Shown here: positions 9,750-12,861 of the stretch, piece after piece
Numbering within the stretch: position 1 is the stretch's first letter
How the letters are laid out: every line of letters starts with the position of its first letter
NCBI RefSeq assembly: GCF_017312725.1
Contig: NZ_BOPO01000126.1
Coordinates: forward strand, 1 to 45,269
Source of the DNA: Actinocatenispora comari
GTDB taxonomy: Bacteria > Actinomycetota > Actinomycetes > Mycobacteriales > Micromonosporaceae
Reading direction: 5' to 3'
Length of the DNA stretch: 45,269 nucleotides
Program-made: the position numbers and the translations under genes
Notes under the pieces: model-generated
Seen by the model: only the letters and a program-made list of their open reading frames with translations
Told to the model about the DNA's origin: nothing
The model's database searches: none

Positions 9750-10862
9750 GTGCGCATCGGCGTGGTGCGGGAGACGGCGGCCGGCGAGCGCCGGGTGGCC
9801 ATGGTGCCGGAGGTGGTGTCCCGGCTGGCGCGGCTGCCCGCCGAGGTGCTGGTGGCCAGCGGTGCGGGCGAGGCGGCGCTGTTCGCCGACGCGGACTACA
9901 CGCAGGCCGGCGCCCAGGTGGTCGAGCCCGACACGGTGTACGGCACGGCCGACGTGCTGCTGTCCGTCGGCCCACCGCCCGACGACCTGCCCGACAGAGT
10001 CCACAGTGGACAGACGCTGATCGGGCTGTACCGCCCGGCGACCTGCCCGGAGCTGGTCGACCGGCTGGCCGCCGCCGGCGTCACGCTGGTCAGCCTGGAC
10101 CGGCTGCCGCGCACGCTGAGCCGGGCGCAGGCCGCCGACGCGCTGACCTCCCAGGCGAACGTCGCCGGGTACCGCGCGGTGCTGGTCGCCGCCGCGGCGT
10201 ACCCGCGGTTCTTCCCGATGCTCGTCACCGCCGCCGGCACGGTACGGCCGGCCGAGGTGCTGGTGCTCGGCGCCGGCGTGGCCGGGCTGCAGGCCATCGG
10301 CACCGCCCGCCGGCTCGGCGCCCAGGTCCGGGCGTACGACGTGCGCCCGGAGACGCGCGAGCAGGTCGAGTCGGTCGGCGGTACGTTCGTCACCCTCGAC
10401 GACGTCGGCCCGGCCGCGGGCACCGGCGGGTACGCCCGGGCGCTGTCCGACGACGAGCAGCGGGTGCAGCAGGAGCGGCTGGCCGCGCAGATCGCCCGGC
10501 AGGACGTGGTGATCACGACCGCGCAGGTGCCGGGTGCGGCTCCGCCGCTGCTGGTCACCGCCGAGGCGGTGAAGGCGATGCGGCCCGGCTCGGTCATCGT
10601 CGACCTGGCCGCCGGCCCGTACGGCGGGAACGTCGCGGTGTCGGTGCCGGACAGCACGATCCGCACCGACAACGGCGTCACGGTGATCGGCGCCGGCAAC
10701 CTCGCGTCGGACATGGCGCCGGCGGCGTCCACCGCGTACGCCCGGAACGTCAGCGCGGTGCTGGCCGTACTGGTCTTCGACGGCGCCGTGCACGTCGACC
10801 TCGACGACGAGATCCAGGCCGGCATCGTGATCACCCACGCCGGCGAGAGGACCAACCCATGA
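9750..10862 (+). CDS. pntAA: NAD(P) transhydrogenase subunit alpha part 1
   Basis: About 370 residues, the soluble NAD(H)-binding component (domain I) of proton-translocating transhydrogenase, which moves hydride between NADH and NADP+ using the proton gradient. Visible: RIGVVRETAAGERRVAMVPE at the N-terminus, SRAQAADALTSQANVAGYRA, and the NAD-binding Rossmann turn VLGAGVAGLQAIGTARRLGA, then AYDVRPETREQVES. The GTG at 9750 has GGGAGGCG upstream and matches the family start (VRIGVVRET). The longer open frame from 9609 has no such support. Its stop TGA overlaps a mini-ORF start (ATGA at 10859). The split alpha subunit matches the Rhodospirillum-type three-gene arrangement. Confidence 0.95.
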   Translation: MRIGVVRETAAGERRVAMVPEVVSRLARLPAEVLVASGAGEAALFADADYTQAGAQVVEPDTVYGTADVLLSVGPPPDDLPDRVHSGQTLIGLYRPATCPELVDRLAAAGVTLVSLDRLPRTLSRAQAADALTSQANVAGYRAVLVAAAAYPRFFPMLVTAAGTVRPAEVLVLGAGVAGLQAIGTARRLGAQVRAYDVRPETREQVESVGGTFVTLDDVGPAAGTGGYARALSDDEQRVQQERLAAQIARQDVVITTAQVPGAAPPLLVTAEAVKAMRPGSVIVDLAAGPYGGNVAVSVPDSTIRTDNGVTVIGAGNLASDMAPAASTAYARNVSAVLAVLVFDGAVHVDLDDEIQAGIVITHAGERTNP

Positions 10863-10942
10863 GCGAGCGGCAGCGAGCGAATCGTGGGCACTGCGCGTTC
10901 GTGCATCAGGCCCGGCCGGAGCGAAGCGGAGGCCGGGCATGA
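10859..10942 (+). CDS. Mini-ORF 1 in pnt operon (27 codons)
   Basis: ATG at 10859 overlaps the pntAA stop (ATGA) and is preceded by GAGAGG at 8 bp. It codes for 27 residues beginning MSERQRANRGHCAFV and ends in TGA at 10940-10942, overlapping the next ATG. Its last codons include GGAGG (10928-10932), placed 6 bp before that ATG. It may be translated as part of a coupling chain or may be only a repeat element compatible with translation. No known domain. Confidence 0.5.
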   Translation: MSERQRANRGHCAFVHQARPERSGGRA

Positions 10943-11012
10943 GCGAGCGGGAGCGAGCGAATCGTGGGCACTGCGCGTTCGTGCCTCAGGCCCGGCGAAG
11001 CGGAGGGCGGGC
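10859..11012 (+). repeat. Tandem spacer duplication (80 bp + 74 bp) between pntAA and pntAB
   Basis: Copy 1 is 10859-10938 and copy 2 is 10939-11012. Both start ATGAGCGAGCGG and contain AATCGTGGGCACTGCGCGTT. They differ by a few substitutions and one 6-bp deletion. A diverged copy of the same layout lies at 11393-11469 between pntAB and pntB. Similar ATGAGCGAGCG-type spacers are, from memory, frequent in Micromonosporaceae genomes; this could not be checked. Confidence 0.8.
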
Positions 11013-11016
11013 ATGA
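10939..11016 (+). CDS. Mini-ORF 2 in pnt operon (25 codons), near-copy of mini-ORF 1
   Basis: It starts at ATG 10939 inside the stop of mini-ORF 1 and stops at TGA 11014-11016 inside the ATGA that begins pntAB. The product begins MSERERANRGHCAFV. Compared with mini-ORF 1 it has a few substitutions and a 6-bp in-frame deletion, so reading frame and junctions are kept. GGAGG at 11002-11006 lies 6 bp before the pntAB start. Confidence 0.5.
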   Translation: MSERERANRGHCAFVPQARRSGGRA

Positions 11017-11396
11017 GTGGCGGTCTGGTCACCGACGTGACGATGTTCGTGCTGGCGGTGCTGGTCGGGTTCGAGGTGATCAGCAAGGTGCCGGCCACCC
11101 TGCACACGCCGCTGATGTCCGGCGCCAACTCGATCCACGGCATCATCCTGCTCGGCGTGGTGATCGTCGCCGGTTCAGCCCGCACCCCACTGGAGTACGC
11201 GCTGGTGGCGGTCGCCGCGGCCTTCGCCACCGCGAACGTGGTCGGCGGGTACCTGGTCACCGACCGGATGCTGGAGATGTTCCGCACCCGGGACGGCCGC
11301 CGCGGCCAAGCGGCGCGCGGCGGCTCGACACCGCAGACAGCCGGCGGGAAGGTACCGGCGCCGCGCGGCGCGACCGGCTCGGAGGTGGCGCGATGA
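11013..11396 (+). CDS. pntAB: NAD(P) transhydrogenase subunit alpha part 2
   Basis: About 127 residues. It is the small membrane component (first part of domain II) that helps form the proton channel. Three hydrophobic helices are visible: VTMFVLAVLVGFEVISKVPA, SIHGIILLGVVIVAG and YALVAVAAAFATANVVGGYL. HTPLMSGANSIHGI is the family signature after the first helix. An unusual Gly/Arg/Ala-rich tail of about 35 residues follows (RRGQAARGGSTPQTAGGKVP), longer than in most homologues. The start at 11013 has GGAGG at 6 bp and overlaps the mini-ORF stop. The stop TGA at 11394 overlaps the next mini-ORF start. Confidence 0.93.
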   Translation: MSGGLVTDVTMFVLAVLVGFEVISKVPATLHTPLMSGANSIHGIILLGVVIVAGSARTPLEYALVAVAAAFATANVVGGYLVTDRMLEMFRTRDGRRGQAARGGSTPQTAGGKVPAPRGATGSEVAR

Positions 11397-11473
11397 GCAG
11401 GCGTGCGCGAGTGATTCGGCGGTACTGCGCGTCGTGTCTCGTCGTCGTTCGGGCGAAGGAGGAACGGCGATGA
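11393..11473 (+). CDS. Mini-ORF 3 in pnt operon (26 codons)
   Basis: ATG at 11393 overlaps the pntAB stop (ATGA) and has GGAGG at 7 bp. It codes for 26 residues starting MSRRARVIRRYCAS and ends at TGA 11471-11473, inside the ATGA that begins pntB. It looks like a diverged relative of mini-ORFs 1 and 2: same start, same length class, ACTGCGCGT in the middle, and a GGAGG-containing end (11458-11462) that serves pntB. Confidence 0.45.
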   Translation: MSRRARVIRRYCASCLVVVRAKEERR

Positions 11474-12861
11474 GCGCGGTGGAGCAGCTCGGCTACCTGG
11501 CCGCGGCGGTGGCGTTCGTGCTCGGCCTGCGCCTGATGAACTCGCCGGCCACCGCGCGCCGCGGCAACCTGCTGTCCGCGGCCGGGATGGTGCTGGCGCT
11601 GGCGATCACCGCGGTACGGCTCGCCGGAAACACCGAGACGCTGACCGGCCCGGTGGTGCTGCTGGCCGGGGTGGCGGTCGGTGCGGCCGGCGGCGCGCTG
11701 CTGGCCCGGCGGGTACCGATGACCGGGATGCCGCAGCTGGTCAGCCTGTTCAACGCGGTCGGCGGCGGCGCGGCGGCGCTGGTCGCGGTCACCGAGTACG
11801 TCCGGCTCGCCCCCGCGGTCGGTGCGCAGACCACGGTCAGCGCGCTGCTGGACGTGGTGATCGGCGGCGTCACGTTCACCGGTTCGCTGATCGCGGCCGG
11901 CAAGCTGCAGGGCTGGGTGACCGGCAACCCGGTGCTGTTCCCGGGTCGCCGGGCGGTCAGCGTCGCGCTGGTCGCGATCGTCGTCGCCGGCGCCGTCTGG
12001 CTGCTGATCACGCCGAACGTGCCGGTGCTGGTCGTGGTGATCGTGGCCGCGGCGGCGTTCGGGGTGGCGATGGTGCTGCCGATCGGCGGTGCCGACATGC
12101 CGGTGGTGATCTCGCTGCTGAACGCGTTCACCGGTACCGCGGTGGCGATGGCCGGGTTCGTGCTGAACTCGGTGGCGTTGATCATCGCCGGTGCGCTGGT
12201 CGGCGCGTCCGGCACGATCCTGACCAAGCTGATGGCCGACGCGATGAACCGGTCGGTGGTCGCGGTGCTGGTCGGCGGCTTCGGCACCGGTGACGCCGGG
12301 CCGGCCGCGGTCGGCTCGGCCGACGCCTCGGTACGGTCGGTGACCGCCGAGGACGCCGCGATCCAGCTGGCGTACGCGCGCAAGGTGATCGTGGTGCCCG
12401 GCTACGGGCTGGCCGCGGCGCAGGCGCAGCACGAGCTGAGTGCGCTGGCCGAGCTGCTGATCGAGCGCGGCGTCGACGTCTGCTACGCGATCCACCCCGT
12501 GGCGGGCCGGATGCCCGGCCACATGAACGTGCTGCTCGCCGAAGCGAACGTGCCGTACCCGATGCTCAAGGAGATGGACGAGGTCAACGACGAGTTCGCG
12601 GTGACCGACGTGGCGCTGGTGGTCGGCGCGAACGACGTGACCAACCCGGCCGCCCGCCGGCCCGGCAATCCGGTGTCCGGCATGCCGATCCTCAACGTGG
12701 ACGCGGCCCGCAGCGTCATCGTGATCAAGCGTTCGATGGGCCACGGGTACGCCGGGATCGACAACGAGCTCTACACCGCGCCGGCGACCGGCATGCTGTT
12801 CGCCGACGCCAGGTCGGCGCTCGCCGAGCTGACCACCTCGGTACGCAGCCTGGTCGGCTGA
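11470..12861 (+). CDS. pntB: NAD(P) transhydrogenase subunit beta
   Basis: About 463 residues, close to the usual length of PntB. The N-terminal 270 residues hold eight or nine membrane helices that complete the proton channel (signature GNLLSAAGM, then PMTGMPQLVSLFNAVGGGAA). The C-terminal domain III binds NADP(H): VPGYGLAAAQAQHELSALAE, HPVAGRMPGHMNVLLAEA, VGANDVTNPAARR and KRSMGHGYAGIDNELY are all present and intact. The ATG at 11470 has GGAGG at 7 bp and overlaps mini-ORF 3; a GTG at 11434 is an in-frame alternative lacking family support. With pntAA and pntAB it forms a complete energy-linked transhydrogenase for NADPH supply. Confidence 0.96.
   Translation: MSAVEQLGYLAAAVAFVLGLRLMNSPATARRGNLLSAAGMVLALAITAVRLAGNTETLTGPVVLLAGVAVGAAGGALLARRVPMTGMPQLVSLFNAVGGGAAALVAVTEYVRLAPAVGAQTTVSALLDVVIGGVTFTGSLIAAGKLQGWVTGNPVLFPGRRAVSVALVAIVVAGAVWLLITPNVPVLVVVIVAAAAFGVAMVLPIGGADMPVVISLLNAFTGTAVAMAGFVLNSVALIIAGALVGASGTILTKLMADAMNRSVVAVLVGGFGTGDAGPAAVGSADASVRSVTAEDAAIQLAYARKVIVVPGYGLAAAQAQHELSALAELLIERGVDVCYAIHPVAGRMPGHMNVLLAEANVPYPMLKEMDEVNDEFAVTDVALVVGANDVTNPAARRPGNPVSGMPILNVDAARSVIVIKRSMGHGYAGIDNELYTAPATGMLFADARSALAELTTSVRSLVG

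Follow-up and report, generated by a model that had tools for sequence, protein, structure and literature searches.

Why should the genes of a transhydrogenase operon be joined to one another by a chain of very short open reading frames? The question is raised by a 45,269-nt stretch of Actinocatenispora comari DNA (contig NZ_BOPO01000126.1; hereafter the window), the forward strand of which carries pntAA, encoding a transhydrogenase subunit (9750..10862, with the GTG at 9750 being our choice of start), pntAB (11013..11396) and pntB (11470..12861). The gene identities given in the initial annotation were confirmed by Pfam domains, namely AlaDh_PNT_N and AlaDh_PNT_C in PntAA, PNTB_4TM in PntAB and PNTB in PntB. 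Between pntAA and pntAB lie, on the same strand, unit 1 of 80 bp (10859..10938; mini-ORF 10859-10942, 27 codons plus stop) and unit 2 of 74 bp (10939..11012; mini-ORF 10939-11016, 25 codons plus stop), and a third unit of 77 bp, belonging to another subtype (11393..11469; mini-ORF 11393-11473, 26 codons plus stop), lies between pntAB and pntB. The TGA of pntAA overlaps the ATG of unit 1, and ATGA junctions are found at 10859, 10939, 11013, 11393 and 11470, with GAGG or GGAGG located 8, 6, 6, 7 and 7 nt 5' of the five ATGs, respectively. Each unit contains a forward-strand GGAGG ribosome site of its own: at 10928..10932 in unit 1, 6 nt 5' of the unit 2 ATG; at 11002..11006 in unit 2, 6 nt 5' of the pntAB ATG; and at 11458..11462 in unit 3, 7 nt 5' of the pntB ATG. 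The five overlaps, the three mini-ORFs and the 6-8 nt spacing of the ribosome sites that had been annotated are therefore all present in the sequence.

The pnt mini-ORF units are copies of a dispersed repeat family. Units 1 and 2 are 97% identical over 59 nt, unit 3 is 78% identical to unit 2 over 40 nt, and unit 3 scores E 4e-16 with R1, the covariance model of the family, whose training set included unit 3. R1 was built from 37 full copies, which were chosen for having an in-frame ORF. In the window's own genome, 32 matches were obtained with a 166-bp stretch covering units 1 and 2, and R1, with 150 candidates scored per genome, gave 73 matches at E<=0.01 in that genome and 24, 69 and 83 in three congeners, one of which is Actinocatenispora rupis. 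Since the own genome alone contains 73 family matches, and since 126 of 141 scorable copies are closed in frame (see below), the pnt mini-ORFs are more than a product of chance. A device specific to pnt was considered and is ruled out, because at least 112 sites were found from the 150 best-listed matches, pnt accounting for two of them.

Members of the family are 65-83 bp in length, mostly 80, 77 or 74 bp, and tandem copies are spaced by 77 or 80 bp in the genus search and by 74 or 77 bp in the family-wide search with the 5' core. A pattern describing the 3' end has 23, 7, 11 and 22 occurrences across the four congeneric genomes and was absent from the other 37 genomes searched. Its reversed control gave no occurrence, and in the named-genome collection the pattern was found only on contigs of A. 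rupis NBRC 107355. The 5' core, ATGAGCGAGCGN{1,2}AGCGAGCGAAYC, a pattern that carries no information on the 3' end of the unit, was found in 33 of 81 genomes of the host family and 18 of its 44 genera, own genus included (control 0), and in 18 of 394 genomes of a class-wide sample. R1 matched 21 of the 150 genomes in an order-wide sample, own again included. L011 and L012 (G000:C124 and C1, 28368-31441) have the same match, coordinates and printed stretch and are possibly duplicate contigs of the assembly. At L007 (G000:C8:73910-74429) a tandem array is interrupted by a stretch of Ns, which may be an assembly gap arising from the repeat.

The repeat occupies an ATGA/GTGA gene start, with a 4-nt stop-start overlap on both sides. 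Gene context was scored with a GC3 heuristic on the listed matches, which undercounts: the AA-AB site of the window, for example, was placed in the 31-300 nt class, unit 1 being absent from the matches listed. The first unit begins in an ATGA/GTGA common to an upstream coding ORF at 46 of the at least 112 sites, with an upstream coding ORF lying within 30 nt at 19 and at 31-300 nt at 34. On the downstream side, 106 of 111 ORFs of 60 or more codons look coding, and the genes are diverse. In a Pfam scan of ten proteins, three from pnt and seven of our choosing, the seven non-pnt proteins matched Amidase, GatB, ADK, CPSase small chain, M16 peptidase and two ABC permease families. In one operon (L101, G000:C63:60364-62018), units precede an Amidase (GatA-like) gene as well as a GatB gene. 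At 13 of the 112 sites there is no co-directional gene within 300 nt upstream. This means that coupling to an upstream gene is impossible there, leaving only initiation at the mini-ORF itself. These 13 sites could be taken to indicate that the units are promoters or terminators placed between genes. We consider this most unlikely, as it leaves frame closure unexplained and as a consensus search of 10700-11600 returned no sigma-70-like and no terminator-like site (a weak test in an actinomycete). Searches of the same interval against Rfam gave no match at E<=5, the three mini-ORF peptides had no match in PHROGs (25-27 residues being short for such a search), and no blastn match pointing to a plasmid or phage origin was obtained in the plasmid or phage collection.

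Closure of the reading frame was scored in the own genus on 150 listed R1 matches with flanks from four genomes, of which nine without xTGA at one end were dropped. In 126 of the 141 scorable copies the length is 2 modulo 3 and the mini-ORF stop falls exactly in the 3' xTGA. The outside-genus set comprised 76 loci (16 plus 60 of the further places listed) with 84 core matches found by the 5' core alone. Here 83 of the 84 end at an xTGA and 79 have the next unit or an ORF of 60 or more codons at that xTGA, against 34 and 18 in frame +2, which was the only control since frame +1 meets the element's own ATGA and is unusable. The initial annotation had proposed that copies elsewhere be checked for a link to ATGA, and this link holds outside the genus, where 79 of 84 close within 125 nt compared with 17 of 84 in the control frame. 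In the order-wide R1 search, all 28 non-genus loci were likewise closed at ATGA. At L307 (G089:C38) an internal insert enlarges the unit to 122 bp, and the frame still closes at ATGA.

The remaining 15 of the 141 own-genus copies are not closed at their own junction. Five of them form a single 78-bp tandem array that reads through to the last unit, and another (G000:C8:27705) continues to a later ATGA. The array (L150, G002:C1:4021821-4022292) consists of six tandem units. The five of 78 bp (0 modulo 3) make up a single ORF of 156 codons, and this ORF is closed in the sixth unit, of 77 bp. Outside the genus, the units at L320 and at the second core of L321, both counted among the 83, and at the stop-less L316 run in frame into the gene behind. 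Where cores are in frame with the gene, as at L321, L316, L320, L343 and L349, it acquires an N-terminal extension of the MSER, MSEA or MSEP type; the gene at L321 we take to be hisB.

Closure on this scale might simply reflect a neutral repeat that spread recently and whose length has yet to drift. The copies are related, and 80 bp (72 copies) and 77 bp (48 copies) together account for 120 of the 141 in the own genus. Nevertheless, we regard this as very unlikely, since the 78 short closed copies outside the genus have lengths of 65, 68, 71, 74, 77 and 80 bp, all 2 modulo 3, since one-base shifts in the 5' part of the unit are compensated elsewhere, and since closure also holds for two remnants (56 and 128 bp) and for a 62-bp spacer of dissimilar sequence.

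If the closed frame is maintained, is it for the sake of the peptide? The initial annotation had allowed that the mini-ORFs might code for functional tiny proteins, which would then be micropeptides (an MSER... family) co-translated with their neighbours by coincidence. Retention of the ORF in most copies and a widely common N-terminus, MSER(Q/S)R, are consistent with this. However, the GCCTCA block lies in frame 1, 2 or 0 in 75, 10 and 3, respectively, of the 88 own-genus copies, from a total of 126, in which it could be located; outside the genus it lies in frame 2 or 0 in 26 and 7 of 33 copies (of 78), with closure maintained despite the shifted internal frames. Since copies differ in which of the three frames they read this block, there is little support for functional tiny proteins. 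Furthermore, the middles and ends of the peptides are wholly different between subtypes, and their length varies by whole codons. The comparison of the dN/dS type that had been suggested gave a divided answer. Over the whole unit the N/S-like ratio was 0.70-0.79 in the true frame and higher, 0.92-1.02, in the wrong frames, in favour of the peptide, but over the 43 bases that follow the ATG the true-frame values (0.64-0.78) fell inside the wrong-frame range (0.58-1.22). Because of the whole-unit ratio, a weak constraint on the mini-ORF peptide is possible. As a full explanation, micropeptides appear improbable to us, and selection seems to see mainly the closed frame rather than the peptide.

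Empty and filled junctions were compared at two chosen sites across three congeners (G001, G002 and G003), and at pnt. The M16-peptidase junction has a 74-bp unit in the window's genome and a bare GTGA overlap in G002, and it holds a 128-bp stretch in G003 and a 62-bp stretch in G001, both closed in frame. The permease junction contains an 80-bp unit in the own genome and in G002, a bare ATGA in G003 and a bare GTGA in G001. At pnt, G002 has one 80-bp unit at AA-AB, where the window has two, and its AB-B junction retains a closed remnant of 56 bp. In G001, pntAB and pntB meet in a bare ATGA, and at a contig edge pntAB is immediately preceded by the 3' end of a unit. A relative of PntAB is present in 27 of 61 genomes of the host family. 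Outside the genus (11 of the first 14 loci) there were no units at AA-AB, and one of seven readable AB-B junctions (in G061) had a related unit. Together with the closure counts, the empty ATGA/GTGA junctions in congeners support the view, put forward in the initial annotation, that these are insertion-tolerated elements that may be able to pass ribosomes on. The units could instead be adaptive translational regulators that tune the subunit ratios of particular operons. They do occur in operons for multi-subunit enzymes (pnt, and before the Amidase (GatA-like) and GatB genes), and the number of units per junction differs between species. However, the same junction is filled or empty among congeners, pnt is mostly without a unit in other genera and the downstream genes are diverse, and we therefore think such tuning unlikely.

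How, then, might a tolerated insertion affect the gene behind it? The 3' bases of the unit together with ATGAG are complementary to CTCAT... further upstream, and the resulting hairpin, which was absent from the initial annotation, covaries and is predicted to bury the downstream AUG. Across the 14 pairs in 37 copies, pairing is possible in 88.3% of cells compared with 76.2% in shuffles, both sides have changed in 56 cells compared with 20.9, and the covariation score is 0.321 compared with 0.136; none of 500 shuffles reached any of these values, although kinship of the copies inflates the covariation counts. Pairs showing a double change numbered 6 compared with 5.0 in shuffles, which was not outstanding (123/500). 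When the partner was slid along, pairing dropped to 38-55%. Four units were folded whole: three had lower fold energies than most shuffles (z -2.4, -3.5 and -2.6), and the energy of unit 3 of the window was unexceptional (z -0.88).

In local folds, the AUG at the 3' junction had a median predicted probability of being unpaired of 0.001, both in the genus (n=111) and outside it (n=78). This probability was below 0.2 in 79% and 71% of copies, respectively, leaving 21% and 29% unlocked (0.2 or above). The median for the AUG at the 5' junction was about 0.6 (n=82 in the genus and n=84 outside), with 7% and 14% below 0.2, and shuffles gave 0.59-0.69. Within the window, forward-strand hairpins are predicted at the end of unit 1 over the unit 2 ATG (10906..10942; probability of an unpaired AUG 0.28), at the end of unit 2 over the pntAB start (10970..11024; 0.001) and, with 13 pairs, at the end of unit 3 over the pntB start (11438..11474; 0.001). 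The two window AUGs at which a unit begins after a gene had values of 0.97 and 0.68. A site resembling a Shine-Dalgarno sequence precedes the 3' ATG in 123 of 126 genus copies and 70 of 78 outside copies, compared with about 20 and 14 when the units are shuffled.

Other bacteria, too, have short non-autonomous repeats that form a hairpin. They include the REP/RAYT palindromes, which are extragenic, and the Rickettsia palindromic elements, which lie inside proteins and preserve the reading frame on insertion. The repeat described here differs from both in sitting at stop-start junctions and making an ORF of its own. The closest likeness is to the mycobacterial MIRUs, which are described as elements of 40-100 bp at 41 places in the genome with variable tandem number (PMC2734929), those at senX3-regX3 being 77 and 53 bp (PMC4213456). 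A 2025 review states that MIRUs appear mobile and insert at start codons with an internal ORF coupled at -4 nt, and that insertion is likely of little effect on the gene (PMC12548453), and the MIRU-bearing interval between senX3 and regX3 is reported to have promoter activity (PMC4213456). Measured against these descriptions, the present family is similarly dispersed (tens of places per genome for MIRUs; here 73, 24, 69 and 83 matches and at least 112 sites) and is likewise inserted at start codons with an internal ORF that shares 4 nt with the gene (126/141, 79/84, and the empty sites). Tandem number also varies, here between species only (two units at pntAA-pntAB compared with one in G002). 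The host, by contrast, is Actinocatenispora rather than Mycobacterium, the sequence appears mostly different, the lengths are 80, 77 and 74 bp, and a covarying hairpin over the downstream AUG was not met in these MIRU descriptions. On those descriptions, the window units are MIRU-like, and are novel by host and by the start-locking hairpin. The bicistronic designs, or leader-ORF couplers, of synthetic biology are comparable: as the review outlines, they use a short ORF to bring ribosomes to a start codon that overlaps it and to cancel the effect of RNA structure (PMC12548453). The arrangement seen here is natural, repeated and mobile-looking.

Related sequences were also found in a genus (g29) taken to be Mycobacterium on the strength of a PPE domain in 16 of 17 genomes. 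R1 matched 3 of 20 of its genomes (E 6e-4 to 0.04) and a 5'-core pattern occurred in 14 of 198. Among 16 related units, six were closed at an ATGA that begins a long ORF (65 bp in four cases, 23 bp in two) and ten were not. At two loci in this presumed Mycobacterium (L337 and L344), 65-bp related units lie directly 5' of a gene starting MSPRVGVTLSGRYRLQRLIA, presumably pknA. In the open-licence PMC literature we found no relevant report of such repeats in Micromonospora, the Micromonosporaceae or Actinocatenispora.

We propose, as the probable explanation, that the units are short, non-autonomous, MIRU-like mobile repeats, the mini-ORF of which relays ribosomes through the unit's own start-blocking predicted hairpin. 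At the sequence level this builds on a dispersed family, its presence or absence at given junctions, changes in tandem number, frame closure, the embedded ribosome site and a conserved predicted hairpin, and it is the distribution of the copies that suggests mobility. A ribosome arriving from the upstream gene, or initiating at the exposed first ATG, would translate the mini-ORF and in doing so would melt the hairpin. It would then halt on the TGA overlapping the next ATG and re-initiate there with the help of the internal GGAGG. The main role of the mini-ORF would thus be to carry ribosomes across an insert that might otherwise weaken the gene behind. In this way the repeat could spread in operons at low cost, with the downstream gene made dependent on upstream translation. 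A bolder form of this proposal, which we put forward only tentatively and hold to be somewhat doubtful, is that the hairpin is a mobility signal. Because such a hairpin buries the start codon of the gene behind, the element would carry the mini-ORF as an antidote, with selection acting on the closed frame and not on the peptide, and the repeats would represent a widespread actinobacterial class of couplers that are hairpin-locked and opened by ribosomes.

These results extend the MIRU idea from mycobacteria to another actinobacterial family, in which 33 of 81 genomes, from 18 of 44 genera, contain the 5' core, with the own genus included. In practical terms, gene callers may attach peptides of the element to the N-termini of genes. 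Since the family contains many insertions, translational coupling, stop-start re-initiation and start-codon unfolding can be tested on natural pairs of junctions with and without the repeat. If the bolder proposal is true, hairpin-locked couplers would be a natural, transposable bicistronic design that makes independent genes obligately coupled.
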